Source: Geosiphon pyriformis (taxonomy: Eukaryota; Glomeromycota; Glomeromycetes; Archaeosporales; Geosiphonaceae). From it: DNA of 64,000 nt. This document shows positions 20,724 through 64,000 of the stretch, piece by piece; within the stretch, counting starts at the first letter, position 1; each line of letters opens with the position of its first letter. The stretch covers positions 399,725 through 463,724 of the forward strand of contig JAAOMT010000302.1 in the NCBI GenBank assembly GCA_016748015.1, in the 5' to 3' direction. The notes beneath the pieces are model-generated. The model made no database searches, had not been told where the DNA came from, and saw nothing but the letters and a program-made list of their open reading frames with translations. Both the position numbers and the translations under genes were made by a program.

Positions 20724-20729
20724 TTTGCT

Positions 20730-26927: not shown

Positions 26928-27914
26928 TATTATCAGTGGTTTTTGGTCTTTTTTTTTTGAATATTGTTAATGTTTATTTGTTGTAAATTTATGTTTTCTA
27001 AAAGTAAATAAACTTTTAATAACTAAATTTATCTTTAAATTATCTTCTATAATTTGAACTGCTGGACTTACAAGTAAAATAGGCAATTCCATACCAGTTA
27101 CTATATACTGTATAATTACTTTATAATAAAAGTTAACTCTTTCTTAGAAATTGTTTTTCTGAAAGTTTACTAAAATATGTAGTTACTTTGCTGTAAATGT
27201 CAACTTTTTTACAGAAATCTTGTTTGTAGGCTGTTTTAATAATTATAATAAGATAAAAAAAAGAAAATAAAAGAAATATAAAAGAAATAGAATTTTGTTA
27301 AAGGAATTGTTTTTTATTCAGATCTAAAGTTACTAACAGATTATTGAAATTGGTAGCTAATCAATTTTAAAACATTAGTTGAGTTTTAGAAATTTTAAGT
27401 ATAATAATTAAAAATTTTTGGGTTTTTAAATATTTTGATTTTTTTATTATTTAATTTGTAAAAGTATGTAAAGAATAATTGATTTTAACTAAAATATCTA
27501 AAATAAGATCTATTTTCTCAAAGAAAAAAGCTTTTTTTTTATATAACTTGTTATAATACTAGTCTTTGAACTTGAATTTTTCTTCTTTGCTATAATTTTA
27601 ATGAATTAAAAATATATTTTAATAAACTACAAATTATTTTAATGAATTATTAACTATTTTAGTAAATTATTTATTATTTTGACAAATTTCTATAAATTTC
27701 AGTGAATTTTTGAATGTTATATAGTTCGGAGTATTGTGTAATTTAATCATTTAATTTCTATTATATAAATCAGATTATTAATTAAATAGTAATATTTGAT
27801 AATTTAATTAAATAATAAGCAATAATTTGAAATAATATTAATATATGCTAATTAATAATAGAAATTATAAGAGTAATTTTATGCTAGTTAATAGCTAAAA
27901 TTTTACTGGTAACA
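26928..27914 (-). mobile_element. Second, older solo LTR of the same family in LINE copy 2
   Basis: It starts TATTATC (decayed TGTTACC) and ends GGTAACA. It aligns along its whole length with the LTR at 25485-26458 but is much more AT-mutated. Flanks GCAT (26924-26927) and GTAT (27915-27918) fit a 4-base target duplication with one C/T change. It interrupts the region before RNase H. Confidence 0.87.
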
Positions 27915-29460: not shown

Positions 29461-29487
29461 AATAATAATAATAATAATAATAATAAA
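29461..29487 (+). repeat. (TAA)n tail of LINE copy 2
   Basis: About nine TAA units lie just beyond the last LINE-like sequence. Simple-repeat 3' tails are common in several LINE clades, so this probably marks the 3' end of the element. Confidence 0.65.
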
Positions 29488-30300
29488 ATATGTATTTTAT
29501 ATTTATAATAAATTAAATTAAATTAAATTATAAAAAGATTATATATTTTTAAAGCTTTTAAAAAATATTATTAACTTATAAATTTATAATTTTATTTTAT
29601 ATTTTACATTAATTATTAATTATTAATTATTTTTATTTTTATTTTATTAATAATTTAATTAATATTAAAAATTTTAAATATAATTATTACTTAAAATATA
29701 TAATTTTTTTTTCAAAAAATTTATTTAACTAATAATTTAAAAGTTTTAATATTTAAAATAAATATTTTTGTTTAAATTATAATTAATAAAAACTGAAATA
29801 ACTTTTTTATTATATTATAAATTAATTATTTTAAAGTTATTTAACTATTAAATTTACTTAAAAATTTTTGAAATCAAAAAATATTTTTTAAAATTGTATC
29901 TATTTATAATTAATTTATAAAATTGGTTTTTATTTATTTATTTATAGTTTAGTTTTAATACGATTGTAATTAAAATAAGTATTAATATTTTTTTTGAATT
30001 ATTCAGGTAAACTTTTCAAAAAAAAATCAAAGAATAATATTATAAAATTTAAAATATATCAAAATTTATTTATTAAATTGAATTAAAAAATAGAAATTTA
30101 TTTAATTTGAAAATTTACTTGTAATATTAATTAAATTTTTCATAAATAATTCTAAAATCAAAAATTTAATAATAAAATGTATTAATAAATATTAAAAAAA
30201 TTGAATAAAATTATATAGATAAATTTAAATCTTGAAAAATTTATTTGTATTTTTAATTATATTCAAACATTTAAAAATTTCATAACTTCTTTAATCCAGG
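29488..30300. other. AT-rich spacer
   Basis: Nearly pure A/T with no coherent frame or repeat beyond short A/T runs. Confidence 0.6.
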
Positions 30301-31674
30301 TTTTGAAAAAATGACAATTTAAGAGCGCATGACAATAGTTAATAAGACATTCCATGTCCATTATGGTTAAGATGATGACTGTATTAAAAAAAACAAAATA
30401 AATTAGAAAACTGGAACTGAAACCACCTTTAACACATTCCTTCTTTTTTACAGATTTTCATTAATAAGTCGTTTAACATATATATGTATATTAGTTAAAT
30501 TGTATGTCCTATTATTAAAGAGACTCATCACATTAAGACAAGATTAGAAACTTTCAAGTTTCAAATTATAGGATCTTTTTGTTTTAAAGCTTAACTATTA
30601 ACCCATTGAACCACGACATGAATGTTTCCGGATCACTATTGTGATAAATAATAAACATAAATTTTCACAATTTCCGAACAGAGTACAAAGAAATAAGAAA
30701 TAATGAAGGAGAAGCGGGTGTTGCCATGGTGATTAAGGTTTTCTCTGCAGTTGTTTTTTGTAATCTTTTTTTATTTATTTATTTAAAAAGGCGGCTTTGT
30801 AACCATTTATATTGAAAAGAATAGGATCAAAGAATAGTACAATTGGCATGATTAATTTGAGTCAAAATTGAATATTTAAAGTTTAATTTTTAACTTTACT
30901 TGTATAATCAATGGGTGTGATCAATAGGTATGTATAAATACTCTTTAAAATTGATCTTCTTGTAACATTATCAAACTCAAACTCTAACTTATTATCTGGT
31001 TTCGACCAGTATTGTACTCATTTTGTCAGGGTAACCTGTTTTTTTTCTCAAGTTTTTAAAGTTTAAAGTTTTTCCTTTTTTGTTTGTGATATTGGGGAGT
31101 TCTTTTCATACATATCACATTAATAGTAAAAGATTTAACGATTGGAAAAGTTTTTCCAGATTTAAGTTCTCATACTAAGGATAAATCTCAATAAGGCTCG
31201 ATGTCATGAAAATTTTAAAAAAATTTCTAGCCTGAAGTTGAAAAATTGCTTGCGCCTTAGCTTGCATATCTTTATTAATTATTTCGGACGTTGTGCATAG
31301 TTAAATGCAAGGTCTGATTGAATCGGTGGAAAAAATTTCCAAATTTTCCTCATGGCATCATCTATATAGTCTTCAAGCCATTTAATTTATAGTATGATAA
31401 TAAGATGTTAGCCAATAACAATAAGAATCCTCATATTACGATTAATGATTTCCATGTGAGAATACAATGCAATATACTTTGAACCGATTTCTAATAGCAA
31501 TTGGTCATAACAGCGAATCAGAATTATAATGCACACCATTAAACCTTCCGAATGGTCTTAAAAATAATCTTTTCTTCGACATTATTGCCATCCGAATGTC
31601 GCGATTTGACATTTGATAATTCATTTTAACATTGTTACTCTCAAACATGTGTCTAAAAATAATTTCTTTAATAC

Positions 31675-31700
31675 ACAATCAATCAATCAATCAATCAATC
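31675..31700 (+). repeat. (AATC)n microsatellite
   Basis: About six AATC units in a row. Confidence 0.85.
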
Positions 31701-32037
31701 ATCAAAGAAGAAAGAAATCAAAGAGTTACACAGTGTAGAATTCGAAGAAATTTAAGAAAAACCCGGATTCAGATTGGAATGGCAAAAAACCGCGTGAAAA
31801 TGATGAACAATATTTAAATATAAGAATCTTGTGGAAAAAATGTGCTTATTTATTCAATTCATGGACCAATAATGCAATCTTGAAGCGCAAATTTAACTGT
31901 TCTTTGAGAGTTTGCTATCATTACATACTTATTTACCAAATACCCCCATTGACGACTAAGAATTAATCATTGTATCGTGTGAGTCCCTAGCGTAAACCAA
32001 TGTGATATAATATCAAAAACTTGAATTAGTTTATTTA

Positions 32038-32048
32038 ACAACAACAAC

Positions 32049-32138
<90 letters not shown>

Positions 32139-32158
32139 TATAATTTATAATAATAATT

Positions 32159-32197
<39 letters not shown>

Positions 32198-32198
32198 T

Positions 32199-32232
<34 letters not shown>

Positions 32233-32234
32233 GA
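32038..32234 (+). repeat. (AAT)n microsatellite with short (AAC)n start
   Basis: A few AAC units followed by about 190 bases of AAT units, interrupted by TATAATTTATAAT segments near 32138-32165 and 32195-32205. Confidence 0.92.
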
Positions 32235-32620
32235 TAATGATAATAATTTATTATTGCCGAAACCACAAAATTATCCCGCTCATACGTTTTGGTAATTAGT
32301 AATTGACTAGATTTTTCACCAAAAATGATATCTGAGAAAGAAATTCAATAAACAGATAACAATTGATTGATCGCGTGTTGGAGAAAAATATCGCGGTCAA
32401 ATGATAACGGACAATTGTTGTCTATTTCGAATTAGCGTGAACAAGTTTTTTTTTTTTAAGGCTTGATTTATATGAAAATATTTCCCCGAGATATACAATC
32501 CTAAATATTTTAGAGTAAACGACTTTTGAAGTGAGATATTAACGCCGTTTTTAACTAGTATAATTATCTTTCATGAATCGATTTATTTGGATTAAATGAT
32601 CGCTTTAAAAAATAGTGCTC

Positions 32621-32635
32621 CTCATCATTATCATT

Positions 32636-32667
<32 letters not shown>

Positions 32668-32690
32668 TATCATTATCATTACCATTATCA
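32621..32690 (+). repeat. (CAT)n / (CATTAT)n microsatellite
   Basis: A pure CAT core at 32638-32666, flanked on both sides by CATTAT variants. Confidence 0.9.
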
Positions 32691-33991
32691 ATTAAAACAT
32701 CCCAAAATAGGAATCTTTTATTAAAATCATGATCTTTTTATTTGAAATTTGGAAAATATTTTGATTTATTTATATGTCGTTTAACTATTTTAATATTTTT
32801 AAGATTATTACAATCAAACTATTTATGAAAAACATGCTAAAAAAATTCTTAATTTATCATTCATCATTTATGGCCTTTTAACCAGTTATCAAAGCTTACC
32901 ATTTTTGGGGATTCGAAAACAAAACTTTAAAACAACAAGATTTCTCCTCCCATTTACACTATTTAAAAATGTTTGTGTAATATAACCCATTTTTTTCAAA
33001 TGATGATGCTTAAAAAAGAGGGTGAGATGATCTTAGAGGGGTTTTAATTCCTCACCTTTATTTTTATCATATTACTTAAAAAAGTCTTAAATGAACACTG
33101 ATTACTCCGTGTCTGAGGAAAGTGCCACACGCTTTTGAATATTAGGAAGCTTTTTGCCTCTATCATGCGATTCTTTTTACACGTGAAAAAACCTTTTAAG
33201 AATCATTATCGTCAAACTCATGTGACCTCTTAATGTAATTGTTTATAATGATAACTAGCCTTTTTTCCAAAAAAAAAAAAACGTGGTTGAAATATTATGG
33301 GGCTTAATTATGTAGTTTCATTTTTTTGTTAAAGATTCGCAAAACAAAAATTATAAAAATAATTGTTTGTAATAATTATTATTGCTGGCAATTTTATTAA
33401 AGAATCCAAGCAAAGATAAAACAATTAAAAAACATTGAATTAACATTTCAATAAATAAAATAAAATAAAATAAATTTTGTTGTTTATTCTTTAAAATTAA
33501 TTAAATCTTGACATGAAAATAATTTCTTATTTTTCAAAATTTTGATTAAATTATGTGGTGTGTACAAAAAGCTTATTTCCAGTTATTTTTATATGCATTA
33601 TATAAAATTAATTAATTTTGATGAAAAATCAAAAATCATAACACAATATATAATATCATAATACTTTTGTGTCAAAATTACTTTTTATATCATATCATTA
33701 ACAAATTATTATTATTATTATTAAATTTATTTCTTAATTGTGCATAATATGTGATTTATAATTTAAATAGTTAAATTGTTATGAAACAAAAATGAATTTA
33801 AGATTTTATTGCATTTTTTATTAAGCATCATTAATAATTATATAATAATAATAATAATAATAAATTTTTAAAGTTAAAAAATTTCTATAATTTTACTGAT
33901 CTGTGTTAAACTTTATCATCTTTTTGGAACTTCATAATTTTACATTTAAAATAATAGAAGTTAAAAAAAAAATGCAACTCAGACTAAAAAA

Positions 33992-33996
33992 GAATC

Positions 33997-34028
<32 letters not shown>
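33992..34028 (+). repeat. (AATC)n microsatellite, second tract
   Basis: About eight AATC units, the same unit as at 31675-31700. Confidence 0.88.
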
Positions 34029-42679: not shown

Positions 42680-43415
42680 AATAGGAAAGGACCACTCCTT
42701 GTACGGAAAAGCACTATTTCAGTACTTTTGAAAAGATTTAGGAATACCAGCAGAAATTACTATTGCAGAAAATGACTTTTGCAACTATATCACCACAAAA
42801 ATCAACTGCTTGTTAGGCCACACAACAGACACAAGAAGACTTGGAAAACAAATCCATCAAAGCTTACTAAGATACTTAACAACTACCACTACTCAAGTGA
42901 TTGCTGAAACCCTATGCATAGTCAATATGGACATTAAACACTATGTAACAAAATGATTCTCTCAAGTACAACAACCAGTAGAATCCGATCTGGAGGAATA
43001 TGAGTATGGATCCAATAATCCCACAACTGCCCAAGACAAATCCATGGTCAACAAGAAACCAAGGATCTTCTCCCCAATAACTCCATCATACCATCAGACA
43101 TCCCAAAGTAGAATTGTATTCAACCCACCTCTGGAAACCCAGTTGGAAACACCACAAACTTCTGGAAACTCACATCTTTGGAATCAACAAAGTTAGAACA
43201 AATCACTGAGAGAATACAAATTGCTGTTTGGAAATCTTACTCCAGCAGCCAGTCAACCAGAAGGAAACACATCAACTTGAAAACAGCCACCAGCACAAAA
43301 CCCAACAGAATTAGCATCTCTCCTGATGGAAGGAACAGCTATCCTACAACCTATTGGTTCAAGTGACAAAGAGAAACAACCAGCATTAGCACCCAGAGAA
43401 CACTCAAATACGTAG
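42680..43415 (+). pseudogene. Element B gag, N-terminal part (before element A insertion)
   Basis: An open reading of about 240 codons with TGA/TAG breaks: TITKINCLLGHTT-like, TRRLGKQIHQSLLRYL, then a Pro/Ser/Thr-rich linker to PALAPREHSNT. It corresponds in position to the N-terminal gag piece of element A (44390-44738). It ends at the left border of element A. Confidence 0.65.
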
Positions 43416-44380
43416 TGTTACCAACCAAAACTTGAGATATTAATTAACATAATATTACCCTTATAATTTCTACCATTAAATTAGCATATATTATCATTCA
43501 AATTATCACTTATTATTTAATCAAATTATCGAATATTATCAATCAATTAATAATCCAATTTGTACTATAAAAATTAGGATGATCAAATTACACAATACCC
43601 CAAACAATTTAATATTCAAGAGTTTGCTAAAATTTGTAGAAATTCGCTGAAATAATTGATAGTTCACCAAAATATTCAATAGTTCATAGAAATAACTTGT
43701 AAGTTTGCCGAAATGTACCTTTAGTTCATTGAAATCATAGTAAAGAAAATAATTCAAGTTCACAGACTAGTACTACAACAAGTTGTATAAAAGAAGAGCT
43801 TTTCTCTTTGAGAAAATATATTCTTACCTTTAGATATCTTAATTTGAATCAATTCAATACACAAAAACGAAATAAATATCAAATAATTCAAAAATCAACT
43901 TCTTAATTATTGCACTTGAAAATTCCCAAAACCCAACTAACATTTTGAAATTGATTAGCTACCAATTTCAGTAAACTGTTAGTGACTTCAGATTTGGATA
44001 GAAAACATTCCCTTGACAGAATTCTATTTCTTTTACATTTCTTTTATTTTTTTTTCTTTTCTTATTACAATCATTAGGGTAGCCTACAGACAAAATTTCT
44101 GTAGAAGAGTTGACTTTCACAGCAAAGTAACTACACATTTTTAGTAAGCTTCTAGGCAAGCAATTCCTGAGAAAGAGTTGATGTTTACTACAACATAACT
44201 ACATAAAGTAACTGGCAAGGAATTGGCCATTCCACTCATAAGCCCAGCAGTTTAAATTATAGGAGATAATTTGAAGATAAATTCAGTTACTGGAGGTTCA
44301 ACCACATTCAGAAAACGTGAATTTACAACAAACAGATATTAATAACTATTAAGAAAAGAGACCAAAAACCTCTGGTAACA
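43416..44380 (+). repeat. 5' LTR of element A
   Basis: It starts TGTTACC and ends GGTAACA, 965 bases. A TATAAAAG box is at 43786-43793. Upstream of it (about 43600-43745) lie repeated TTCGCTGAAAT / TTGCCGAAAT / TTCATTGAAAT-like units. TTTGGTGCTC follows at 44381, a possible primer-binding site (TGGTGCTC) two bases from the LTR. Confidence 0.93.
43786..43793 (+). promoter_or_regulatory. TATA box of LTR A
   Basis: TATAAAAG inside the LTR, also present as TATAAAAA at 52617-52624 in the 3' LTR. It lies downstream of the TTCRCYGAAAT-like array, a reasonable position for the U3/R boundary. Confidence 0.6.
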
Positions 44381-44381
44381 T

Positions 44382-45900
44382 TTGGTGCTCTTTTATGGAA
44401 ATAACACAGCAACAACAAAATTCAAAGTGGCAACCATACCAGACACAGCAACTCTAGAGTATTATCAGTCAATTTACACCCATTGCAAGCAAAAATTCAA
44501 CATTCCAGACGGAATTGAAATTGTCAAGAGAACACTTTACTTATATATTAAAAACCGTATCAACAATTATTTTCTTAGAAATTACAACATTTCAGAAGTT
44601 AGAAGCAATCTCTACAATAATTTAGTGCACTATTCACGATTAGGAACTAAAAACCTTAACAGTAAAACACTTGTCACCTACTTCCAAGAACTCAATTATA
44701 ACATTATCAAGTATTGCGAAGAAAAATATTCAGTGTAGTCCAAATACTTTTTTGACTTTGAATCAGAAACAGAAACAAGCAACAAAGGCAAACAAAAAGC
44801 AAAACAACACTCAAAAACCACTTCAAACACTCCAATACTGACAAAGACAACTGCCAAACACTTGCAAACACCTGAACAAAGAACCAGTGTCAAATTACCA
44901 CTCTCAATTACACCATTTCCAGCTTGACTTGCTTAACCACAAACACTAAAGCTTACCACTTATTTGGTTTTCAAGAATAGAAGATTTTCAGTCACCCAAA
45001 AGCCCTATTCAACAACAGAAACCAATATTAACTAGCACAAACCTTATTGACTACTTAGCAGAAAATCGAAGTGAAGAGACCAAATCAGAACAAGAAACAG
45101 AAGACTCAGAAAACAAAAAAGAAATAGCCTCTACATATATCGCAAAAATTCCTGAGTTCACAGAAGAAGACAGCAAAACCAGTCCTCAAAAATGGCTTGA
45201 CAAAGTCTCAAAAGCAGAAGATGCAAATGGTTGGAATACTGCCAGAATGTTAAAAGCAATTCCATACTTCTTACAAGGGATGGCTGGTAAATGGTTTGAA
45301 AACTTGGAAGCCCCACCAGAATACTGGGAAGCATTTAAAACTGCTTTTCTAGAACAGTTCACTGACAATAACACTTCCATTATCCTTCAAAATCAGTTCC
45401 GAAATATCAAGCAAGAACCAAGTAAATCAGTTATGACTTATTTTGGGAAATTCAACAAACTGCTTAGAAAGATTTGCCAATTGGAAACCAATGAATACTA
45501 CTCCAATGCACAAATTTTGGATCAATTCATTGCTGGACTAAAAGACAAACTTATCAAGAAAGTTTGCCTACATGCACCAGAAAATTTAGCCACTGCTATT
45601 CAACAGGCAAAAAACTATGAAATGGCCATGAAAAAAGCCAACCATACCAAACTTGTTAACCTGGCTATTGGAGAAACCAGCTCAGCAGCTGAAAAAAAGA
45701 TTGATCAATTAACCAAGAAAGTTGAAAACTACTTTATTAACCAACAGCAACAACAGCAGCTGCAGCAATCACAACAACCACAAAGATACTAACTCCTACA
45801 ATGACACAATCAAAACAACTTTGGACCATCATCCAACAACCAAATCCAAAATTGTCATTATTGTGGAATTCCAGAACACTGGAAATGCGATTGTAGAAAA
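44382..45900 (+). pseudogene. Element A gag polyprotein
   Basis: The N-terminal part is open to 44738. After a TAG the frame resumes with a linker (45060-45130) and the gag core to 45792, including KWLDKVSKAEDANGWN, FLQGMAGKWFENLE, FKTAFLEQFTD and VMTYFGKFNKLLRKI, typical of the retrotransposon gag domain. A Gln-rich run follows. A zinc knuckle CHYCGIPEHWKCDC (C-x2-C-x4-H-x4-C) at about 45857-45898 lies in a shifted frame. Gag forms the particle and packages RNA. The leading TTG of the frame lies within the primer site, so the true start is unknown. Confidence 0.85.
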
Positions 45901-46379
45901 TTTCAATAAGACCAACAACAGAGGAATAATTAACGTTATTTCCAATCACAACAATCATATTATCTACTATCATCAGCTCAATATTTACTAAGGCTACAAT
46001 ATTCAAACCACTATTATTAACCTGCTCCACAACCAATCCAACAACAGTATCAACAATTATCCACACCACAATATCAAGTGCCAACCAGAAGATTGATTCA
46101 ATATAATCAATTTACACCACAAAACCGTTTTTCAACAAACAACAACAGATTAAATTCCAACAACTAATTAACCACTCAAAATTCGAATCAACATAGACCC
46201 ATACACTATCACACTCAATTCAGTTATTTTACAATACCAGAGGAATCAAATTTTCAGCAAACTGCACTTTTTGAAGGTAAAGCTGCAGTACCAAGGCAAA
46301 ATCCTTCTAATAATACTATCCCACCAGCCAGAATTGCCTGAAATGCCAATCTTTCAGACATCTTTCCATTCGAATTTGA

Positions 46380-46830
46380 AGCCAATGAATCACCATTTCT
46401 ACTTAGCAATGTAGCAGTTAACAAACAAAAAGCTATTACAGCAATGTATACTAAAACTGAAGTAGAAGAAAAACCAATTCACTTAATATTAGACAGTGGA
46501 TTTGCTGGAAGTATTATTACCTACCAATTAATACAACAGCTTCAATGAACTGTTGACAAACCAGCTCAAACTGTCATCATTATGGCAGATGGTATGAAGA
46601 AGACACCAGTAAGAGAAATTGATAATTTTTCATTCACCATTGATGGAATCACTATTTTAGTTAAAGTCCTAGTCATGGATGTATCCCAATACCAAGCTTT
46701 CGTCAGAAATGATTGACTTCTCAAGGCCAATGCAAATTTAGATTGGGAAATTCAGGAATTAAAAATCTTATATCAAGGACAACACACCATAGTATCTGCT
46801 ATGTGTAGAACTTTTAACAAATGATCAAAA
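46380..46830 (+). pseudogene. Element A aspartic protease domain
   Basis: ILDSGFAGSIITYQLIQQL carries the D-S-G active site (about 46489). It is followed by the VIIMADGMKKTPVREIDNF flap-like region and VSQYQAFVRND, then an in-frame TGA where related sequences have Trp (NDWL). One TGA at 46546 replaces a likely Arg. It processes Gag-Pol in intact elements. Confidence 0.8.
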
Positions 46831-46989
46831 AAAACCCCAGTACTTGAATTTGAAAAAGAGAAAAAAATGCCACTCACTGAAACCTACATGGCTCTTGGAT
46901 CAACATCCAATTGGGCTGAGGAAACAGAACAAAAAATCTTTGAAGAATCAAGAAAATAGAAGAAAGTTAGATATTCTACACCAGAACCA

Positions 46990-47640
46990 TGAAAACAATC
47001 ACCCTACATTTCACTTAAATGCAGAAATTGTAACAAAAAACTTCCATCAATGGAAGTCTACATTTTACCTGAAGAAAAATATGAAAATCATACTTGTTAT
47101 TACTGCAAGACTTGCCACAGAGAACGATGGGGCCATCTAATAAAAAGAAGTGGAAAATAGGACAACACCCCTTGTTTGACTTGTGGAGATATGCTACTAG
47201 AAAAATACAATTGGATTAATATAGCAATGAAAGGAGGAGTCTGCGATCCAACCTGCCAATATGCTTTATCAATTTCAAAAAAAGTCAAAAGAAGAACACT
47301 TTTTGATGCAGCATACAACAGTGCTTTCAACAAACTTTATTACTACCCCTATGATGCTGAGATGATTTTTGACCTAGCAATGGCATTAGTTAATGGAGCT
47401 ACCAAAGAAGATGTCCATCAAATGAAAGAAGCAGAATACATTGAATACACTATAGAATTAACTGGATTTGATTACGAAGATGAAGTAGAAGTCTACCACC
47501 AAATTGCAAGTTACATCTATCCAACCCAAGAAGCTCAAATTCAATGATTAGAGCAAATAAACATTAGGCTATGTGAAGAATGCATTATGCCTTGTGATGA
47601 ACAGTGATGTTCTGAATGCTATGTCCTTAGCATCCCACTA
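46990..47640 (+). pseudogene. Element A Cys-rich zinc-finger-like module between protease and dUTPase
   Basis: Cysteine pairs in order: CRNC (about 47021), CYYCKTC (about 47095), CLTC (47179), CDPTC (about 47249), then after a roughly 100-residue helical stretch CEEC, C and CSEC (47575-47620). The same arrangement occurs in element B (55230-55480 and 55782-55835). Pairs of CxxC suggest zinc binding. I do not recognise the family, and it is not a usual Ty3 domain. The frame holds one TAG (GK*DN) where Trp is likely. Confidence 0.7.
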
Positions 47641-47779
47641 CCAATTAAAGATGACCAGCACGAAATCGAATTTGGAATACAGGATGAAGAAGTCCCAGTA
47701 ACCCTTATTTATCTCACTAAAAACCAACCTGTCATAACACTCAAATACTTCAACAATAAAAAACAAAGAATCAAGTCTA

Positions 47780-48170
47780 AGAAAGCCCATGAAATTGATG
47801 CTGGATATGATTTAAGATATCCAGAAAAAGATACCCTCATTCTTCAACCAAAATCTCTTACAAGAATTAATCTAAAAATTGCTCTTGAAATTCCACCAGG
47901 AACAATGGTACAAATCGCCTCCCGATCCTTCCTAGCAAGCAAAAAAATCAACATAAGAGGAGGAATTATTGATGCTGGATACACTGGAGATATTACAGTA
48001 ATGCTTCAAAATAAAACTAACAAATTATTTAAGATTGAATATGCTGAAAAGATTGCCCAAACTATTTATTTGCCCTTAATTAACATTTCAGATTTGCAAT
48101 TAGTCAATTAAAGAGAACAATTAGGGAAAAACAAGAGAGGAACCCAAGATTTTGGTTCAACTGAACAATT
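47780..48170 (+). pseudogene. Element A dUTPase domain
   Basis: All five motifs of trimeric dUTPase are visible: HEIDAGYDL (1), ASRSFLASK (2), RGGIIDAGYTGDI (3), AEKIAQTI (4) and RGTQDFGST (5). dUTPase splits dUTP to dUMP and pyrophosphate and so limits uracil in new DNA. The domain is fused into pol between the Cys-rich module and the RT. It is open apart from a TAA at 48109 between motifs 4 and 5. Host dUTPase capture is the likely origin (inference). Confidence 0.85.
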
Positions 48171-48739
48171 CATGGTTCCAGTTAATATAGCTCTCAATAC
48201 ACAGAACAAATCTTACCAGATTCTCAGACTTCCACAACTAATTACTATTTCACCCTTTGGAGAACATCACGAAATTTATACCTGTGGAAAACCCACTACT
48301 ACTCAACAAATCTTTGAAGCCAATGAACAAATTTGCATGAAACATGACATCTCAATCCCAAACATTTATCTTTCAAAAAGAATAAAGAAAGTCTGAGTTA
48401 CTTTTTACAACCCTAATCATCACCTCATCATTTTACTAAATAATTTGGAAATCAGAATTATTCACAGTAATATCTTTCAACAAGAATTATCCCAAACAGT
48501 TTTTAACTTTTTGGAAATTATTGGATATTCTCTCCCCAGAATAAACCCAAAACCCAGTTCTGAAAACTATCACATTGTTGTTGAAAAATTATCTCGAATC
48601 AACATAGGACAACTAGAGCCCCAACAACAGAACCAGCTTAAGGAGTTAATTACAGAACATGCAGACATATTCACCGAAAACAATAATGATTTAAGAAGAA
48701 CTGATTTGGTCTAACATTAAATCTACACAGGAGATATCA

Positions 48740-50010
48740 AACCTAGGCGACAACAAGCATACTGAGTTGCCCCAGAAAGCCACCAATTTATTCAAGAAGA
48801 AGTTTAAAGAATGCTCAACAATAGGCTCATTCAACCATCAATGAGCCCATGGGCTTCACCAGTAGTACTTGTTAAAAAGAAAAACAGAAAAATCTGATTT
48901 TGTGTTGATTATTGACAACTGAACAATGTTACAATTGGAGATGCCTACCCCCTTTCCTGAATCAATGATATGTTAGATGCACTTGGAAAATCCAAATACT
49001 TTTCAACATTGGATTTAGAAAGTAGATACTGACAAGTTGCCATAAATCCCAAAGACTGTCCCAAAACAGCATTTATCATGCAAGGAGAAAACTACGAATT
49101 CAATATAATGCTCTTTGGATTATGTAATACACCAGCAACATTCCAAAGACTCATGAATGTTGTATATGCTAGACTTCTTTGGAAATCAGTAGTTGTCTAT
49201 CTTGATGACACTGACATTTATTCTCCATCTTTCGAACTTCATCTAATTCACCTATGAGAAGTTTTTTAACAATTACGAAAAGCAGGATTAAAATTAAACA
49301 TTGAAAAATGTCATTTTGGAAAAACAAGCTTGGCCTTTTTTGGTCACATAGTTAGTGAAGAAGAAGTCAAACCAGACCCAAGAAAAATCAGTACTGTTAA
49401 GAATTTCAAAGTTCCACAAAATACCACAGAACTAAGAGAATTTGTTGAATTAGCTTTTTATTATCAGAAATTTATCAAAAGATTTTTGGAAATAGCAAAA
49501 CCCCTCAACCAGCTCAACACTAAAAACACTGAATACAAATAGATGAAAGAACACCAAAACACCTTCAAAATACTTAAAGAAAAGCTCACCACAGCTCCAA
49601 TTCTTGCCTACTCAGACTTTAGCAACTGATTCTGATTAGCCACAGATGTCTCTTATACTGCCTTTGGTGCCATCTTATCACAGTTAAATGACAATGGCAA
49701 TAAACGAGTAATTGCTTATGCAAGTAGAACATTAAAACCAGCAGAGAAAAACTACCCAGCAACAGAATTAAAGACCGCAGCAGTAATATGGGCCTTATAC
49801 TACTTTGATCTTTATCTCAAACCTAAGGAATTCGATATTATTACTGATAATATTGGACTCAAATGGTTACAAAACAAAAACACAAAGTTGAATGCAAAAC
49901 AAACCAGATGGACAGGATTTTTAGCAAACTATTAATATATAGTACATTACAAACCAGGAAAACTCCACACCAATGTTGACTGTCTCTTCAGAATAAGACA
50001 AGATTAGAAA
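48740..50010 (+). pseudogene. Element A reverse transcriptase and RNase H
   Basis: RT motifs include SPWASPVVLVKKKNRKI, FCVDY, NIMLFGLCNTPATFQRLM and VVYLDDTDIYS, so the YxDD box is intact. RNase H follows (ATDVSYTAFGAILSQL, RTLKPAEKNYPATELK, FDIITDN). In-frame TGA codons sit where Arg (DY*QLNN, I*FC) or Trp (RY*QVAI) is expected, and TAG/TAA codons also occur. The YLDD box is better kept than in elements B and C. Confidence 0.87.
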
Positions 50011-50264
50011 ACACAAATTAACACTCAACTTAACCAACCTAACAACCAACAAACAATGAATTCAAAAGACTATAACAATCTTAAACAATATTTGAAAACA
50101 TTAATAATCTCAACAGATTGGTCTTCAGATGAAAACCATCGATTACAACAACAAGCCAGACAATATTTCCTACACAACAACATTATTTATCATTAAAATT
50201 TCAAAAATCCAGACAAATCACTCAGATTAATACAAAAACATGAAAAAGAGACTATATTATATAA

Positions 50265-51440
50265 CATGCACTCAGATCCTTCATCAGCACACTTTGGAAA
50301 AGACAGCACCACCCAAAGAACACTAGAATACTATTTTTGGTCCTGAATGAGAAAAGACATACATCAATATGTTAAATCTTGTGATAGTTGTCAAAGAAAA
50401 GAAGGAACATGCCTTACTGAATCTTTAAATCCAATCAAAGTTGGACAACTTTTTGACCAAGTTGGTATCAATTTAATTGGACCACTACCTATCATCATGC
50501 AAGAAAACTAATACATAGCAGTAGCAATAGATTAGCTTACCAAATGGCCTGAAGTCAGAGCTATTCAATGAGCAGATACAAAATCAGTAGCAAATTTTAT
50601 CTACAAAGACATTATTTGTAGACATAGATGTCCAATTGAACTTTTATCCGAGCAGGGAACACATTTTGTGAACAACCTGATACAAAAAATTTGTGAATAA
50701 TTTAATGTTAAAAGACCTTTATCTTCACCCTACCATCCACAGACAAATAAATTAGTGAAATTTTTCAACAGAACATTGTGTAAATCATTAGCCAAAGTCT
50801 CAACAGATTTTGAACAAGAATAAGATATCTTTATTCCATCAGTGTTACTAGCATATAGAACACTAAAACAAGATACAATGAAACACACACCATTTGATCT
50901 TACTTATAAAAGAACAGCAAAACTACCAATTGAATTCACAGTGAAAACATATCCAGTACAACCAATCACAGAAGGAAACTTACAAAAAACACTTCAGTGA
51001 AGAGCTTATACTCTTCTTAGTACTTTAAAAGAAAAAAGATGTATAGCAGCCACCCACATTGAAAATTCACAAGCCCAACAAAAAGAAAGACATGACAACA
51101 AACTGCCACTAGTTACAAACGAATTTAAAGTTGGAAATAAAGTTCTTTTACACCGAATTAAGGCTAAAAAACAATGGAGTAGAAAATTTGAACATAAATG
51201 GGATGGACCATTCTTTGTTCACGAAATCTTAGAAAATGGATCATACAAGTTAAGACTTAATGGGAAAATACTAGCAAAAGTTGCACATGGAGATTGATTG
51301 AAACATTATTACTCCAGAACACATCCTGAACCATTAATTCTACAAATTAGTACATATTCTTCTTTAGTTAATCCCAAAGATATTTCCCGAATCTTGAAAC
51401 CAATAGTTGTCATTGAACAACATCCCAACTTGAACACTTA
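50265..51440 (+). pseudogene. Element A integrase
   Basis: The N-terminal HHCC zinc region (MHSDPSSAHFGKDS ... CDSCQRKE) is followed by the catalytic core and a C-terminal domain (FKVGNKVLLHR, KWDGPFFVHEIL). Compared with element C, all three catalytic residues are altered: GINLIGP (Asp to Asn), LSEQGTHF (Asp to Glu) and LVKFFNRT (Glu to Lys). Several TGA/TAA/TAG codons interrupt it, so it is inactive. Confidence 0.85.
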
Positions 51441-51560
51441 ATCACTATAGGTTCTTTTATAAAAATTTGGAAACAATCCTACAAAAAATAACATAAAAAT
51501 CTACATACCCAAAAATAATTTTACTTAGAAAAACTGTTAGTTCTTAAAAATCAGTATAAT

Positions 51561-52246
51561 GACTATTCCACAAAACATTTAACAATTATCTCAGAAACTA
51601 ATGTTAACTTTAAAAACAATACCTGAATTATCTATAACTATTACAGGAAAACATATTAATTATACTTAAACAGAAATAGTCACAACTTTATCTCCAAAAT
51701 CACGAAAATATCACCCTTATAAAAAGAACACTAGAAGTTATTCTGGAATTCACCTACCAGAATTTTTGAAGCTTGCTTTGAGAGAAAATTTGTTGCTTCC
51801 ACCTATTGACATTCTACCAAATGCCACAATTTAACAAAAACTTTGACAGTGTCTTAATGAAGAAAACAGTGAATACCCTCCAATCTATAGATATTTTCAC
51901 ATTGGAAAAACACTGCATGAACAAAAACTGGAACTCACAACAGCCAACCTCACAAAAAAAGCCATTCAGAAACAATTCTACAACGAATTTAAGACAATGA
52001 CTGGACCGACAAACAGTTACTACAAACTTAAAGCAGCTCTTAGACTTTATGACCTATTTCACACCTGTGAAAATGTCCTACAAAACCCAATTTTACAACC
52101 ACTGAAGATCCAATACATTGGAAAGTTTACAGAACTGAAATTTCAATAATTTTCAGACCAAATTTCTTCAGTAATTTTGGATTACTATTTGAAATGTGCA
52201 GACAGTACTTGGATTTTGACGGAGCTCAGTCTTGAGGAGGAGATTA
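51561..52246 (+). pseudogene. Element A accessory ORF downstream of integrase
   Basis: An about 230-codon reading begins MTIPQNI, continues QLSQKLMLTLKTIPELSI, YSGIHLPEFLKLALRENL and AALRLYDLFHTCENVLQNP, and ends LSLEEE at the purine tract just before the LTR. The same protein is present in element C (61609-60913). No signal peptide or membrane segment is evident, so it does not look like an envelope protein. Function unknown. Interrupted by TAA/TGA codons. Confidence 0.7.
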
Positions 52247-53212
52247 TGTTATCAACCAAAACTTGAGATATTAATTAACATAATATTACTCTTATAATTT
52301 CTACCATTAAATTAGCATATATTATCATTCAAATTATCACTTATTATTTAATCAAATTATCGAATATTATCAATCAATTAATAACCCAATTTGTACTATA
52401 AAAATTAGGATGATTAAATTACACAATATTCCGAACAATTTAATATTCAAGAGTTCACCAAAATTTGTAGAAATTTGCCGAAATAATTGATAGTTCACCA
52501 AAATATTCAATAATTTATAGAAATAACTTATAAGTTCACTGAAATATACCTTTAGTTCGTTGAAATCATAGTAAAAAAAATAGTTCAAGTTTACAGATTA
52601 GTACTACAACAAGTTGTATAAAAAAAGAGCTTCTCTCTTCGAGAAAATATATTCTTACCTTTAGATATCTTAATTTGAATCAATTCAATACACAAAAACG
52701 AAATAAATATCAAATAATTCAAAAATCAACTTTTTAATTATTGCACCTGAAAATTCCCAAAACCCAACTAATATTTTGAAATTGATTAGCTACCAATTTC
52801 AATAAACTGTTAGTGATTCCAGGTTTGGATAGAAAACGTTCTCTTGACAGAATTCTATTTCTTTTACATTTTTTTTATTTTTCTTTTTTTTTCTTATTAC
52901 AATCATTAGGGTAGCTTACAGACAAGATTCCTGTAGAAGAGTTGACTTTCACAGCAAAGTAACTACACATTTTTAGTGAGCTTCCAGGCAAGCAATTCCT
53001 GGGAAAGAGTTGATGTTTACTACAATGTAACTACATAAAGTAATTGGCAAGGAATTGGCCATTCTACTCATAAGCCCAGCAGTTCAAATTATAGGAAATA
53101 ATTTGAAGATAAATTCAGTTATTGGAGGTTCAACCACATCCAGAAAACGTGAATTTACAGTAAACAGACATCAACAACCATTAAGAAAAGAGACCAAAAA
53201 CCTTTGATAACA
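52247..53212 (+). repeat. 3' LTR of element A
   Basis: Starts TGTTATC, ends GATAACA, 966 bases. It aligns end to end with the 5' LTR. Substitutions seen are transitions. TATAAAAA lies at 52617-52624. Confidence 0.93.
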
Positions 53213-53249: not shown

Positions 53250-54110
53250 TTACCCATTAACTGGATCATAGCTTACTGGGATATCACTAAATTGGAAAAA
53301 TTTTCTGGTAAAGAAGATAATGCATATTCTTGGATTGTGGATGCTGAGAAAGCAATTACTGCTAATGGTTGGAATGACAACTGCATAATTCAGGCACTGC
53401 CATTTTTTCTGACCGGAACCACCAATTTGTGGTACCAAAGCCTTGCAAAGAAGCCTACCTTCTTTACAGAGTTTAAACTTACATTTCTGCAATACTTCTG
53501 TGACCCTAATACACTCATCCGATTGCAAAATTAATTTAGTATAATAAAACAAAATGACCATGAAGCAATAACTACTTATTTCGAAAGATTCAATTAGGTC
53601 TTTCGACAAATTCTAGCCATCAAGCAGAATTATTATACCACTGCACAAGTTCTCAATCAATTCATCAAAGGACTAAGGAGCAGCCTCCTAAGATCCATAT
53701 GACCTTGCCATCCAGCAAACCTACAAGAAGCAGTCATTCTTGCTCGTGATTTTGAGTCGGCTGAGCAAGAAGCAAATTATACTCAAGCCATTAATTTAGC
53801 CATCAATAGAACCTCTAATGTTGATGCAAAGATAACCCAATTAAGTGAAAAATTAACTCAGAAAATTGAGGGATTCTTAGCTGGAAGCACAGGAACTTAT
53901 CAACCACCACAACGGAGAGAAAATAACAACAACAGCAGATACCCACAGCAACAGAACCGTCAGCAATAGCAACAACCTTGGAGATCCAATCCCCACAACT
54001 GTTACTACTGCCAGAAATCTGGATACATTGTCTGTGATTGCAGAAAGAAGATAATAGACCAAAATCAAAGGAACCAAAAACAGCAACTCAGATATCAGTA
54101 AAGCATGGTA
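53250..54110 (+). pseudogene. Element B gag core and zinc knuckle (resumes after element A)
   Basis: FSGKEDNAYSWIVDAEKAI, FFLTGTTNLWYQSLA and FKLTFLQYFCDP match the gag core of element A. Interruptions are TAA, TAG and TGA. The knuckle near 54001-54042 reads CYYCQKSGYIVCDC: the zinc-binding His is Tyr, a single C-to-T change. Confidence 0.82.
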
Positions 54111-54529
54111 CCCTAATATTCCATACCTCAGAATCAACTGCCCCAATATGCACAACAAGTCTTGTACACTCAACCACCACCCCAGAATTATTATCAACCA
54201 CTACCAATAACACAAGCAATTCCTTACTATCAAACTTCCCCTTACAGCTCATCCAAACTTCAAGCCATAGACTATAATCAGAGATGGAAGAATCCCAATA
54301 ACAATCAGGTACAAACCAACAGTAGACTGTCTCAATCAATTTTTCGTGGTCCTGCCCAATCTTGACCAACACCAACTGGATACCCAAATCAAGCTTCCTA
54401 TCTTGGTCTTATGGAAGACCAGAGTTTTGACAAATCTACACCTGTGGAAAAGGGAGATGTAAAATAAATCTCCCAACCTTCCAAACAAACAAAAAGCAAT
54501 ATCTCACCAGCCACTATTACCAAAGACAC

Positions 54530-54960
54530 CATCCTAGCTGCCATATTTCCTTTCGACATTGATAATTTGAACACTTATAGCCTTTTTAGTGAAGTAGTCA
54601 TCAATCAGAATAAACCAATAATGGCCCTATACACCAATGCCAAAGTCGGAGGAATAGATATTAAATTAATTCTGAATAGTAGATCAGCCGGTAGCATAAT
54701 TACAAAGCAGTTCATGGACCAACTAGGTCACTGAGTAGACTGTACTGCTACTGTCTGAATTATCACAGTGGATGAAAACACAAAAACCCCAATAGGAGAA
54801 ATTGACAACTTCCCCTTCAAAATTAATAGAATTCAGATTCCTACCAAAGTACTTGTTATGGAAACTACTCAATATCAAGCTTTAGTGGGAAACAATTGGT
54901 TGTCAAAAGCCAATGCTACTCTCGACTAGAACACCTAAAAACTTCAACTTATGTTCAACG
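54530..54960 (+). pseudogene. Element B aspartic protease domain, active site mutated
   Basis: The sequence ILAAIFPFDIDNLN leads to LILNSRSAGSIITKQFMDQL. The active-site D-S-G has become N-S-R, both explicable as G-to-A changes. The downstream region IGEIDNFPFKIN and TTQYQALVGNNWLSKAN aligns with element A, where Trp is replaced by a stop. Confidence 0.78.
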
Positions 54961-55179
54961 GACAGCATGCCCAAGTCCCAGCTATGTGCGGACACTTTAA
55001 AACCCAACATACCAAGGAACTCCTTATTAAATTCGAAAACACATCACTGCCACCAATCATTGAGACCTATCAGGTTTCATGGGCAGATGATTATCGAACT
55101 GAACTACTCCCACCACCAACCTGGGAAAAAAAAGGAAAAGGCAGAGCTGAAAAAGAGCCCCAATTGTCATTGATAGGAT

Positions 55180-55860
55180 ACGTAACTTTGGACCAAAGAA
55201 ATCTATTTTACCAACCTCCAAGACTAATATGTGTTGATTGTGGAAAGAAGCTATCCACTATGGGCACATGTATCAGAGACAATGAAGAATGGCCCACCAC
55301 TACCAAATACTACTGCAGACTTTGTTTACTGAAAAGATTTGGATGACCAAAATGACAAGGCAAGTGAGACAACATGCTATGCCTCACATGTGGCAAGATC
55401 TTGTCTGATGAAAGACTTTGGAATGATGTGCCTGGTAGAGGAGAAACATGCAATGAGGCTTGTTAATACATCATATTAATCAATAATTGGATACGAAAGG
55501 GAACCTCCATTGAGAATGCTTGGAAATGAGCACTCAACAGGTTGGATGGTTATCCACATGATAACCACAAAATCTGGAGAATGGCAAGCACCAAAGCCAA
55601 AGATGCCACACCCAAAGAGATATGAGAAATCAAGAATAATCTCTGAATGCCCAAATATAATAGACCTGACTACTCTGTGGATGATTTTTTATGGATGATC
55701 CAGATGCATTTCAGAACTGATATCAAGAATTGGCCCCAACTTGAGAAGAACAAGAGCAAAGATTAGCCAATTTGAATACCAAACTGTGCGATTACTGTTT
55801 GATCCCCTGTCACTTCCAGTACTGCGACAAATGTGATCTCATGTTTAATCCACCTCCAAG
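55180..55860 (+). pseudogene. Element B Cys-rich module
   Basis: Conserved with element A: CVDCGKKLS, YYCRLCLLK, LCLTCGKIL, ETCNEAC, and after a spacer LCDYCLIPC with QYCDKCDLMF (55782-55835). Between, TGA stops replace likely Trp/Arg. Spacing of the cysteines matches element A closely. Confidence 0.7.
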
Positions 55861-56039
55861 AATACTGTTTCCAATCACCAAACTACCTGAGCCTGAAGAA
55901 GAAGAGATATTGATCACCAAGGACATGTCATTTCAAGATCCAACTGAGGATACTGAAACAGAACAGTATCTCACGTATCCCAACCTATCCAAAGAACTAG
56001 AGCTAAAATGGTACAGTAACAATGAGAAAGGAATCTGCC

Positions 56040-56450
56040 CCAAAAGAACGCATAACACTGATGCTGGTTTCGACCTATAATATCCTGGACAATCACCCAT
56101 CATTATAACTCCACATTCCCTTGTAAAAATAGATCTTAAGATAGTGGTAGAAATTCTTATTAGTACAATGGTACAAGTTGCCTCTTGATCTAGTCTAGCC
56201 AAGAAAAAAATTGACATAAAAAGAGGAATCATCGATGCTGGTTACATGGGGAACATCATCATGATGCTACAGAACAATTTGAACAGACCCTACAAAATAG
56301 AATCACAAGAAAAGATTGCTCAAGCTATCTTCCTACCCCTAATCAAAATACCCCAATTGATCCCAGTAACAACCCGAGAAGAATTAGGCCTCACTGCCTG
56401 AGGAATCAACAGGTTTGGATCAAGTGGAAAAGGAAATGTACCAGTTAATT
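56040..56450 (+). pseudogene. Element B dUTPase domain
   Basis: Motifs seen: HNTDAGFDL (1), VAS then a TGA and SSLAKKK (2), RGIIDAGYMGNI (3), QEKIAQAI (4) and INRFGSSGKG (5). The TGA in motif 2 is where Arg is expected (GRSS/SRSS), so CGA to TGA is likely. This confirms that the domain is a family trait, not a chance feature of element A. Confidence 0.83.
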
Positions 56451-56979
56451 TCACAGAAGAAGACAGTGACCAGGTAGAATTTATCTACACTAACACCATC
56501 ATCTCTATTCCCTTATACTGACAATACATCCTCAAGGTGAATTGAAAGATCCAAGATCAAGCCCTGTTATTTGAAACCAGTCCCAAAATCTGTTTCTTAA
56601 CTAATGTTGCTAATCTATACCTACTGGCCAAAACCCATAAACACTTCAAAATCCCCATCCACAACCCAACAGAAGATGTCATTGAAATCTCCAAAAGAAC
56701 CCTTATTGGTTCCATATCTGCAGATATTCAAAATCTTGAAAAACTCCAGTCCATTTCAGACTTTGCACAATTATTCTTATTCTGCGACATTACCTTACAA
56801 GTATAGAATTTGCCAAAAAAAAGTTACTTGTTTACACCAAAAGAGATCAATAAATTGAATTTAGGAAACTTAAGTACCCTGTAACAAATGCAACTCAAAG
56901 TCCTTCTGAATTAGCATGCCAATGTTTTTGCCAGTGAAAATGAATTTGAACACACTGACATCGTAAAGCATCAGATTGA

Positions 56980-58250
56980 TATGGGAGACACTTAACTGAT
57001 TAAACAACAAGCTTACCGCATATCCCTATCTGGTAATAACCTAATTAAGCAAAAAGTGCAACAGATGCTTAATAACGGCCTAATCAAAGAATTGTTAAGC
57101 CTTTGGTCTTCTCCAGTAGTCCTGGTTACCAAGAAAAATGGAAAGATACAATTCTGCATGGATTACCAAAAATTAAATAGCATTACACAAGGAGATAGTT
57201 ATCCCACTCCCCTTATTCAAGAAATTCTGGACAATCTAGAAAAAAAGAAATGGTTCTTATTATTAGATCTAGCAAGTAGTTATTGGCAAGTTGAAATAAA
57301 CCCCAAAGACAAAAGAAAAACAGTGTTTATCACTTGAGATGGAAACTTCAAGTTTAACATAATGCCTTTTGGACTTTGTAATGCTCCTGCCACATTTCAA
57401 CACCTGATGGATGTAGTATACAAAGGAATCCTTTGGAAATCAGTAGTAGTCTACTTAGATAACACAAATGTGTTCTCCGAAACATTTGATGATCATTTGC
57501 TCCATCTGCAACAAGTCTTTGAATGCCTTTGTAGTGCCAGATTGAAACTCAATTCCGAGAAGTACTTCTTTGGAAAAACTGAGTTAAAGTTCTTAGGACA
57601 TATAATTGGCAAAAATGGAGTTAAACCTGATTCAAATAAAGTACAAAAAGTCAAGAATTTTCTAGCCCCAATCAACCTTAGAGAATTACAAGGATTTTTA
57701 GGATTGGCAGGATATTATTGTCAATTTGTCAAAGATTTCTCGAATATTGCAAAACCACTCCATCAATTGTTGTCCAAATATGTATCATACTTATAAAAGG
57801 AAGATCAACAAAAAGCATTCGACTATTTCAAGCAGCAATTGATTACATCCTCAATCCTGATCTATTCAGATTTTACTAAATGGTTCATTGTCACTACGGA
57901 TGCCTTGAAAAATGCTTTAGAAGCAGTATTATTCCAGATAGAACCAGACAATAGAAAACATCCAGTTGTCTATGCCAGTTGCAGCACAAGCCCAGCGAAA
58001 AAAAATTACAGCACAACAGATTTGGAATGCCTTGCCATTTATTGGGTCATACAGACTTGGAAACATTACCTTAGTCAACCATTTGACCTATAAACCAATC
58101 ACAAAGGACTTATTTGGTTACTCAATAATCCATAATTAGAAGAAAAATATGTGAGATGGAGTACTTATCTGTAACAATTCCCACTCAAAGTCCATTACAA
58201 GAAAGGATTCAAGAACACCAATGTTAACAGTTTGTTGAGGATACCACAAA
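56980..58250 (+). pseudogene. Element B reverse transcriptase and RNase H
   Basis: The frame 57056-57337 holds SPVVLVTKKNGKIQFCMDY and LDLASSYWQVEINPKD. After TGA, 57362-57796 holds MPFGLCNAPATFQHLM and VVYLDNTNVFSE: the YxDD box is YLDN, so the second catalytic Asp is lost (G to A). RNase H follows (TDALKNALEAVLFQ; KKNYSTTDLECLAIYW). Confidence 0.86.
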
Positions 58251-60912: not shown

Positions 60913-61609
60913 TAGCCTCCTCCTCAAGACTGAGCTCCATCGAAGTCCAAGTACTGTTTGTTATTTCCAGATAATAATCCAAAATTATTGAAAAAATTTG
61001 GTCTGAAAATTGTTGAAATTTCAGTTCTGTGAGCTTTCCAATGTATTGAATCTTCAAAGGTTGAAAAATTGGGTTTTGTAGTACGTTTTCACAGATGTAG
61101 AATAGGTCATAAAGTCTAAGAGCAGCTCTGAGCCTGTAGCAACTGTTTGTTGATTCAGCTGTTGTCTTGAATTTGTTGTGAAGTTGTTTTTGAATAGCTT
61201 TTTTTGTGAGGTTTGCTGTTGTAAGTTCCAGTTTTCATTCATAGAGTGTTTTTTCAATGTGAAAATATCTATAGATTGGAGGATATTCAGTGTTTTCCTT
61301 ATTGAGACACAGTTGAAGTCTTTGTTGAATTGTAGCATTTGGTGGAATACTAATCAGAGTGAGCATTAGATTTTCTCTTAAAGCAAGCTTTAAAAGTTCT
61401 GGCAGGTGAATTCCAGTATAACTTCTTGTGTTCTTTTTATACAGGTGATATTTTCGTGAATTTGGGGCTAAATTTGTAACTATTTCTGTTTGGGTATAAT
61501 TAATGTGGTTTTCAGTAACAGTAATGGATAATTCGGGTATTGTTTTTAAAGCTAACATTAGTTTTTGGGATAATTGTTGAATGTTTTGAGGAATAGTCAT
61601 TATAAGCAA
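60913..61609 (-). pseudogene. Element C accessory ORF downstream of integrase
   Basis: Starts MTIPQNIQQLSQKLMLALKT, continues HINYTQTEIVTNLAPNSRKY, TGIHLPELLKLALREN, then a TGA at 61237-61235. The same protein then continues (KLELTTANLTKKAIQKQ, YDLFYICENVLQNPI, LELSLEEEA-like end) into the purine tract. At the TGA, element A has CAA: both derive simply from CGA. No family recognised; no membrane segment seen. Confidence 0.72.
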
Positions 61610-62897: not shown

Positions 62898-63179
62898 GTT
62901 GTATAATATGGTCTCTTTTTTCTGTTCTTGTATTAGTCTGAGTGGTTTGTTTGGGTTTTTGAAATTTCGATGATAAATAATATTGTTGTGTAGAAAATAT
63001 TGTTTGGCCTTGTTGTTGTAGTTGATGTTTTTTATCTGGAGACCAATCTGTTGGAATTGTTAATGTTTCCAAATATTGTTTGAGATTGTTGTAGTTTTCT
63101 GAATTCATTGTTTGTTGGCTCTTTTGGTTGGTTAAGTTGAGTGTTGGTTTTTGTTTTCTAATCTTGTCTCATTCTGAAG

Positions 63180-64000
63180 AGACAGTCAACATTGGTGTGG
63201 AGTTTTCCTGGTTTGTGATATACTATGTATCGATAATTTGCTAGAAATCCTGTTCATCGGGTTTGTTTTGCATTCTGCTGAGTATTTTTGTTCTGAAGCC
63301 ATTTGAGTCCAATATTATCAGTGATAATATCAAATTTTTTAGGCCTGAGATAAAGATTGAAGTGATGTAGGGCCCAAATTACGGCTGCTGTTTCTAGTTC
63401 TGTGGCAGGGTAGTTTTTCTCAGCTGGTTTTAATGTTCTGCTAGCATAAGCAATTACTCATTCATTTCCATTGTCATCTAGTTGTGATAAGATGGCACCA
63501 AAAACAGTATATGAAGCATCTGTAGCTAGTCAAAATCAGTTGCTAAAATCCGAGTAGGCAAGGATTGGGGCTGTTGTCAGTTTTTCCTTGAGAATTTCAA
63601 AAGCTTTTTGGTGTTCGGTAGTCCATTTGTATTCCACGTTTTTGGTGGTGAGCTGGTTGAGGGGTTTTGCAATTTCCAAGAATCCTTTGATAAACTTCCG
63701 ATAGTAGGATGCTAATCTTATGAATCCTCTTAGTTTTGTAGTATTTCGTGGAACTTTGAAGTTCTTAACAGCACTGATTTTTTCTGAATCTGGTTTGACT
63801 TCTTCTTCACTAACTATGTGACCAAGAAAGGCCAAACTTGTTTTTCCAAAATGGCATTTTTCAATGTTTAGTTTTAATTCTGCTTTACGTAATCATTGAA
63901 AAACTTCTTGCAAGTGAATTAAATGAAGTCCGAAAGATGGGGAATAAACATCAGTGTCATTAAGATAGACAACTACTGATTTCCAAAGGAGTCCAGCATA
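63180..64000 (-). pseudogene. Element C reverse transcriptase (C-terminal part) and RNase H
   Basis: At the window edge RT reads LLWKSVVVYLNDTDVYS: the YxDD box is YLND, first Asp lost by G to A. It continues to LAFLGHIVSEEEVKPDS and the frame 63835-63536, then RNase H to about 63180 with TGA breaks. Upstream domains lie outside the window. Confidence 0.85.

Follow-up and report, generated by a model that had tools for sequence, protein, structure and literature searches.

dUTPases hold dUTP low (PMC4531489), and those of viruses are assumed to permit replication in non-dividing cells (PMC2864245). Enzymes of this kind encoded within pol are known from retroviruses and from LTR elements of fungi and rotifers (PMC4531489, PMC2864245, PMC5408684), and their role in the fungal elements has been called unclear (PMC2864245). 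The closest described arrangements are found in the fungal Ty3/gypsy element PosPlaTy3-5, where the dUTPase lies between the protease (PR) and the reverse transcriptase (RT) (PMC2864245), with further dUTPases described in the Ty3/gypsy pol of Postia placenta PosPlaTy3-3 and -4, Phanerochaete chrysosporium and Tuber Tmt1; in the bdelloid rotifer LTR retrotransposons Juno, Vesta and TelKA, also with the dUTPase between PR and RT (PMC5408684); and in betaretroviruses, where the NC-dUTPase fusion (MMTV p30, M-PMV) places a zinc-finger domain N-terminal to a retroelement dUTPase (PMC4531489). In Entomophthora muscae, dUTPase domains are described as enriched, alongside retroviral protease families (PMC11105155). 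The feature analyzed here belongs to the pol polyprotein encoded by a lineage of Ty3/gypsy LTR retrotransposons in Geosiphon pyriformis, the genome of which comprises 64.35% repeats in 129 Mb according to a published table (PMC9453076). The first-pass annotation of this locus did not recognize a Cys-rich, zinc-finger-like module combined with a dUTPase as a standard Ty3 layout; this assessment stands for the Cys-rich module, which is the new part, but not for the dUTPase between PR and RT, which is already known from fungi and rotifers (PMC2864245, PMC5408684).

The window, that is, the whole stretch of DNA that was analyzed, spans 64,000 nt of a contig in an assembly of 406 contigs and 124.7 Mb. 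It contains two Ty3/gypsy elements, A and B, each encoding PR, a Cys-rich module of about 205 amino acids, dUTPase and RT, in this order (Table 1). As originally noted, the module with its CxxC pairs and the dUTPase follow the protease in both elements, and the five dUTPase motifs are recognizable by eye in both, albeit degraded: B is altered at motifs 2 and 5, and A has stops within the same two motifs. Both copies are broken, given the in-frame stops in the module and dUTPase of B, and the stops and frameshift in A. Most likely, element B was inserted into the gag gene of the older element A, because gag matches are found on both flanks of B, the left one being weak; this nesting gives the relative ages of the two elements. 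The candidate target duplication of B is weak (4 bp with 1 mismatch, GTAG/GTGG). Two minus-strand matches near the right edge of the window, one to the extra coding stretch and one to RT, probably belong to a third element of the lineage that is clipped by that edge. Elsewhere in the window, the 18001–34000 block has a GC content of about 19–28%, below that of the element-rich flanks (about 29–40%), and a milder CpG depletion (0.43 vs 0.22 in element B).

Table 1. Features of the Ty3/gypsy elements in the 64,000-nt window (positions are those of the window)
Feature	Position	Strand	Remarks
Element B, full extent	43416–53212		
Element B 5' LTR	43416–44380	+	965 bp, TGTTA...TAACA
Element B gag/capsid	44950–45789	+	PF03732, PF19259
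Element B aspartic protease	46399–46887	+	
Element B Cys-rich module	47014–47619	+	CxxC...YYCxxC, CLxC...CDxTC, helical middle, CxxC-x3-C-x4-CxxC; 3 in-frame stops
Element B dUTPase	47731–48123 (to 48165 with the family-3 query)	+	PF00692; 1 in-frame TAA directly upstream of motif 5
Element B RT and RNase H	48493–49992	+	
Element B integrase, C-terminal piece	51001–51294	+	weak SH3_Tf2-1 match, E 0.0049, GPY/F-type
Element B extra coding stretch between integrase and 3' LTR	51601–52080	+	broken; 67% identity to residues 1–148 of predicted protein P0010
Element B 3' LTR	52247–53212	+	vs 5' LTR: 60 mismatches, all transitions, and one gap
Element A gag, probable 5' part, left of inserted B	42735–43115	+	weak match, 25% identity
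Element A remaining gag, running into protease, right of B	53283–54869	+	
Element A protease	54579–55085	+	
Element A Cys-rich module	55218–55834	+	stops and frameshift
Element A dUTPase	55934–56425 (to 56386 by one query)	+	broken
Element A RT and RNase H	56747–58240	+	
Probable third element, extra coding stretch	61085–61558	-	
Probable third element, RT	63173–64000	-	clipped by the window edge

The overall architecture of the lineage is gag, protease, Cys-rich module, dUTPase, linker, RT, RNase H and integrase, followed by a further coding stretch and the 3' LTR. The LTRs thus surround gag, PR, RT, RNase H and integrase in the order that defines Ty3/gypsy elements (Metaviridae), as established by pooling evidence from several copies, namely, the LTR pair and the gag with its Ty3 capsid match in element B, the PR, RT and RNase H profile matches in one genomic locus (L010), and the integrase of another (L012), which is located downstream of RNase H (H2C2, E-value 3.7e-18, and a weak rve match, 0.0055). 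PR, module, dUTPase and RT belong to one open frame in L010, and so do gag, PR, module and dUTPase in L012. The fungal dUTPase elements of PMC2864245 are described as chromodomain elements, with other positions of the dUTPase in other families and, in the available text of that source, no mention of a Cys-rich module; in Geosiphon, compared with these by description only, the one integrase tail scanned at E≤0.01 (L012, family 1) produced SH3_Tf2-1 alone and no chromodomain, family 2 being represented by the element B piece only. Extra coding stretches precede the 3' LTR both in element B and in family 1, where a 250-aa open frame directly beyond the integrase (L012:329–1078, minus strand) has no Pfam match. 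The linker between dUTPase and RT, roughly 100 aa long (L010:4821–5189), is alignable among the three families of the lineage and has no meaningful Pfam match; the possibility that it is a second, degenerate dUTPase is unsupported by either profile comparison or Pfam.

The first-pass annotation inferred from two differently diverged copies that the layout is a property of the lineage, and the genome-wide survey bears this out. Element B belongs with family 2 (77% identity in the module, 62% in PR), whereas the module of element A is about equidistant from all three families (43%), and its dUTPase is slightly nearest to family 3 (59%, vs 52% for family 1, these two families being the queries). 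A search of the Geosiphon genome itself produced at least 150 matches each for the module and for the dUTPase, far beyond chance. All 54 loci that were fetched, which represent 50 distinct places, have the module followed by the dUTPase, and 53 also have a protease ahead of them; the exception, L041, has no protease match. These loci comprise 8 initial dUTPase places and 46 chosen ones (mostly alternate entries in the initial portion of the list of dUTPase matches, along with entries with long frames), including 4 repeats of earlier places, so that the sample is biased to high-scoring dUTPases. Among the 126 family-1 dUTPase places (the best 150 matches minus 24 weaker ones, with 52–57% identity), 123 have a module upstream, and the spacing is 118 nt in 86 of these. 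Conversely, 123 of the 150 module places (the best 150 of 151 matches) are followed by a listed dUTPase; among the remaining 27, 4 are just 47–50% identical to the family-1 query and, therefore, their dUTPases need not appear in the family-1 list. The module-dUTPase layout is, then, nearly fixed across the copies examined.

The dUTPase assignment made in the first pass holds at the profile level. The element B piece matches PF00692 with an E-value of 8e-19 and 68.1 bits (curated cut-off, 22), the open copy L010 does so with 1.9e-25, and the best match to a dUTPase of solved structure has an E-value of 6e-17. Most of the 34 family-2 copies retain motifs 1 to 5, and most of the 16 family-1 copies retain motifs 1 to 4; the search pattern missed motif 5 in family 1, although L010 shows a stretch resembling it. 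The mapped dUTPase is free of stops in 13 of the 16 family-1 copies and 20 of the 34 family-2 copies. Judging from the profile matches and the five motifs, the encoded protein is a predicted member of the trimeric dUTPase family (PF00692).

The Cys-rich module was called unrecognized in the first pass and, after profile searches, it still is: Pfam, NCBIfam and PDB gave no significant match. Its roughly 205 residues include, in succession, CxxC, (C/H)YYCxxC, CLxC, CDxTC, a helical middle (the helices are taken from low-confidence AlphaFold models) and CxxC-x3-C-x4-CxxC. This cysteine pattern is common to the three families, with families 2 and 3 showing 38–47% identity to the first (family-1) sequence. 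Of the 17 positions that are mostly Cys in family 2, 16 are conserved in 27 to 34 of the 33–34 copies and the 17th is variable (13 copies), and most of the failures at cysteines are changes to tyrosine, the expected outcome of G-to-A decay. Neither of the AlphaFold models is confident (mean pLDDT 56.5 and 59.5), and Foldseek and VIA-align comparisons with these low-confidence models as queries yielded no convincing fold match; since this is so, the assignment of zinc is drawn from the cysteine spacing, from which the module is probably a cysteine-rich, zinc-binding domain. By eye, this spacing differs from that of the CCHC zinc knuckle (PF00098, CxxC-x4-H-x4-C), and zf-CCHC was absent among the families listed for nine module sequences at E≤10, in a scan the filters of which remove most matches above about 0.1. 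A candidate match, zf-Vps39_C (PF10367), appeared in one of the nine sequences with 12 bits against a cut-off of 24.7 (E 0.16) and was rejected. Unlike the betaretroviral finger, which is the gag nucleocapsid fused to the dUTPase upstream of the protease, the Geosiphon module is located downstream of the protease and has no CCHC match, and so is not a fusion of the betaretroviral NC-dUTPase type as described; likewise by description, the zinc knuckle of Juno sits after the dUTPase (PMC5408684), whereas the ~205-aa Geosiphon module, with its three cysteine clusters, precedes it. No relatives of the module outside Geosiphon were found among the matches listed in protein searches (13 of 13, 120 of 120 listed among 426 found, and 36 of 36 came from Geosiphon), which reach only relatives that share short exact words and certain protein lengths. 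The module is present in at least 120 deposited Geosiphon hypothetical proteins; there is no description of it in the available portions of PMC2864245, PMC5408684, PMC2774666, PMC4531489, PMC9453076, PMC8647823 and PMC11105155, and a literature search produced no publication combining Geosiphon and dUTPase.

Selection was assessed using transversions only because C-to-T decay had to be avoided. Each copy was placed with whichever of two references it was closer to, which gave 16 copies for family 1 and 34 for family 2. Between the four clusters of the family-2 copies (19, 13, 1 and 1), dN/dS is 0.115 for the module, 0.114 for PR, 0.100 for the dUTPase and 0.155 for RT; over all family-2 pairs, the values are 0.122, 0.110, 0.099 and 0.153, respectively. 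The codon bootstrap range for the module is 0.065–0.192 and overlaps those of PR, dUTPase and RT, these ranges being rough because the pairs are non-independent. In family 2, the module and the dUTPase are under purifying selection, and the module resembles the neighboring enzymes in this respect. Family 1 lends no support: over all pairs, few changes are available, and the transversion ratios are 0.918 for the module, 0.958 for RT, zero for PR (0 nonsynonymous and 14 synonymous transversions summed over pairs) and undefined for the dUTPase (73 and 0). With so few transversions, this family is unusable for selection analysis, and its module ratio is inflated largely by a single copy, L015. This copy, with 73 transversions in the module vs 0 in PR and 2 in the dUTPase, could be taken for a mosaic in which a family-1 element acquired a foreign module; a nucleotide alignment revealed instead no swap but two small indels, which shift the frame in part of the module.

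To the reading that best accommodates these observations jointly, namely, that the module and dUTPase of this pol lineage form a unit in which a zinc-binding scaffold keeps the dUTPase in the reverse-transcription particle, we assign a probability of roughly 0.45. The cysteines would bind zinc, with two four-ligand sites within the N-terminal ~85 residues and a third cluster at the C-terminus, separated by the helical stretch; the protease would free the module still joined to the dUTPase; by analogy with the betaretroviral fusion, the module would act as the scaffold that retains the enzyme in the reverse-transcribing particle; and the dUTPase, once there, may hold down the level of dUTP and prevent uracil from entering the cDNA. 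The module could, alternatively, be a second, nucleocapsid-like nucleic-acid-binding domain that brings the dUTPase to the element RNA or cDNA, for which both the betaretroviral fusion of a zinc-knuckle nucleocapsid to dUTPase (PMC4531489) and the knuckle of Juno (PMC5408684) offer precedents. We consider this unlikely, given that gag already has a CCHC-like motif (labeled by eye in translations of the gag frames), that the module lacks a CCHC match, and that 8 of 9 module sequences are not basic but neutral to acidic: the charge of the N-terminal part is -1 to +2 in these 8 (+10 in the remaining one), and that of the helical part is -2 to -9. With a net charge ranging from about zero to acidic, the module is a somewhat better candidate for a scaffold that contacts proteins than for a knuckle that binds nucleic acids.

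The same lack of basic character, together with the helical middle and the restriction to Geosiphon relatives among the matches listed, would also suit a module that binds a host protein, for example, for entry into the nucleus, the targeting of integration or escape from silencing, its adjacency to the dUTPase being incidental. This is more doubtful still: the module and dUTPase occur together at an almost fixed spacing, the whole-domain ratio in family 2 indicates overall purifying selection, and the parts of elements that are involved in targeting are usually located in or after the integrase. That the module is a functionless spacer or remnant between two enzymes, a notion compatible with the absence of a recognized family, the low-confidence structure models and the family-1 copies that show no constraint in their few transversions, is highly improbable and already contradicted by family 2, where the dN/dS of the module is close to that of the flanking enzymes, with an upper bootstrap bound of 0.192; the cysteine pattern, kept between families that are just 38–47% identical, also speaks against it.

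The first-pass annotation further speculated that a dUTPase would be of special interest in a genome with heavy C-to-T change in its repeats; this connection is not borne out. The LTR pair of element B differs by 60 transitions and 0 transversions, and LTR pairs are identical at insertion, so these differences arose after insertion, too late to be influenced by an enzyme whose action is on the dUTP pool while cDNA is being made. Moreover, misincorporation of dUTP places U opposite A and is not in itself a C-to-T change. In dUTPase-deficient lentiviruses, G-to-A changes are described to accumulate (PMC4531489). The transition decay is biased to CpG yet found in all contexts: in four family-1 pairs, 1033 transitions stand against 15 transversions over 16699 sites, with a C/T mismatch rate of 0.429 at CpG and 0.076–0.101 elsewhere (0.076 at CpA); a single copy compared with eight others shows 1811 transitions and 42 transversions; and in the element B LTRs, the rate is highest at CpG, although the sites are few (7 of 15). 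The post-insertion origin of the LTR changes and the CpG bias lead us to reject the dUTPase as a guard against this decay. The bias would match, as expected, the decay of methylated cytosines, and the excess at CpG over CpA leaves classical CpA-type RIP unsupported as the cause; according to PMC8647823, RIP signatures go undetected in Gigaspora margarita and in Mucoromycotina.

Many of the deposited Geosiphon hypothetical proteins (P0002–P0166) are fragments of these elements, and some of them lack stretches of the module or the dUTPase, as if the gene models bypassed broken parts; predicted family sizes in the Geosiphon genome may, accordingly, be inflated by element fragments. The module is an undescribed domain in these hypothetical proteins. 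Tentatively, it could represent a new family of zinc-binding domains limited to Geosiphon or to fungi closely related to it. Together with the dUTPase, it would make up a conserved two-part accessory cassette of Ty3/gypsy pol, a device specific to retroelements by which an enzyme of the nucleotide pool reaches the reverse-transcription particle and which would have evolved separately from the betaretroviral NC-dUTPase. The retention of a dUTPase with one unrecognized Cys-rich partner across divergent families makes this lineage well suited to exploring whether a retroelement dUTPase needs a physical tether to the reverse-transcription complex.
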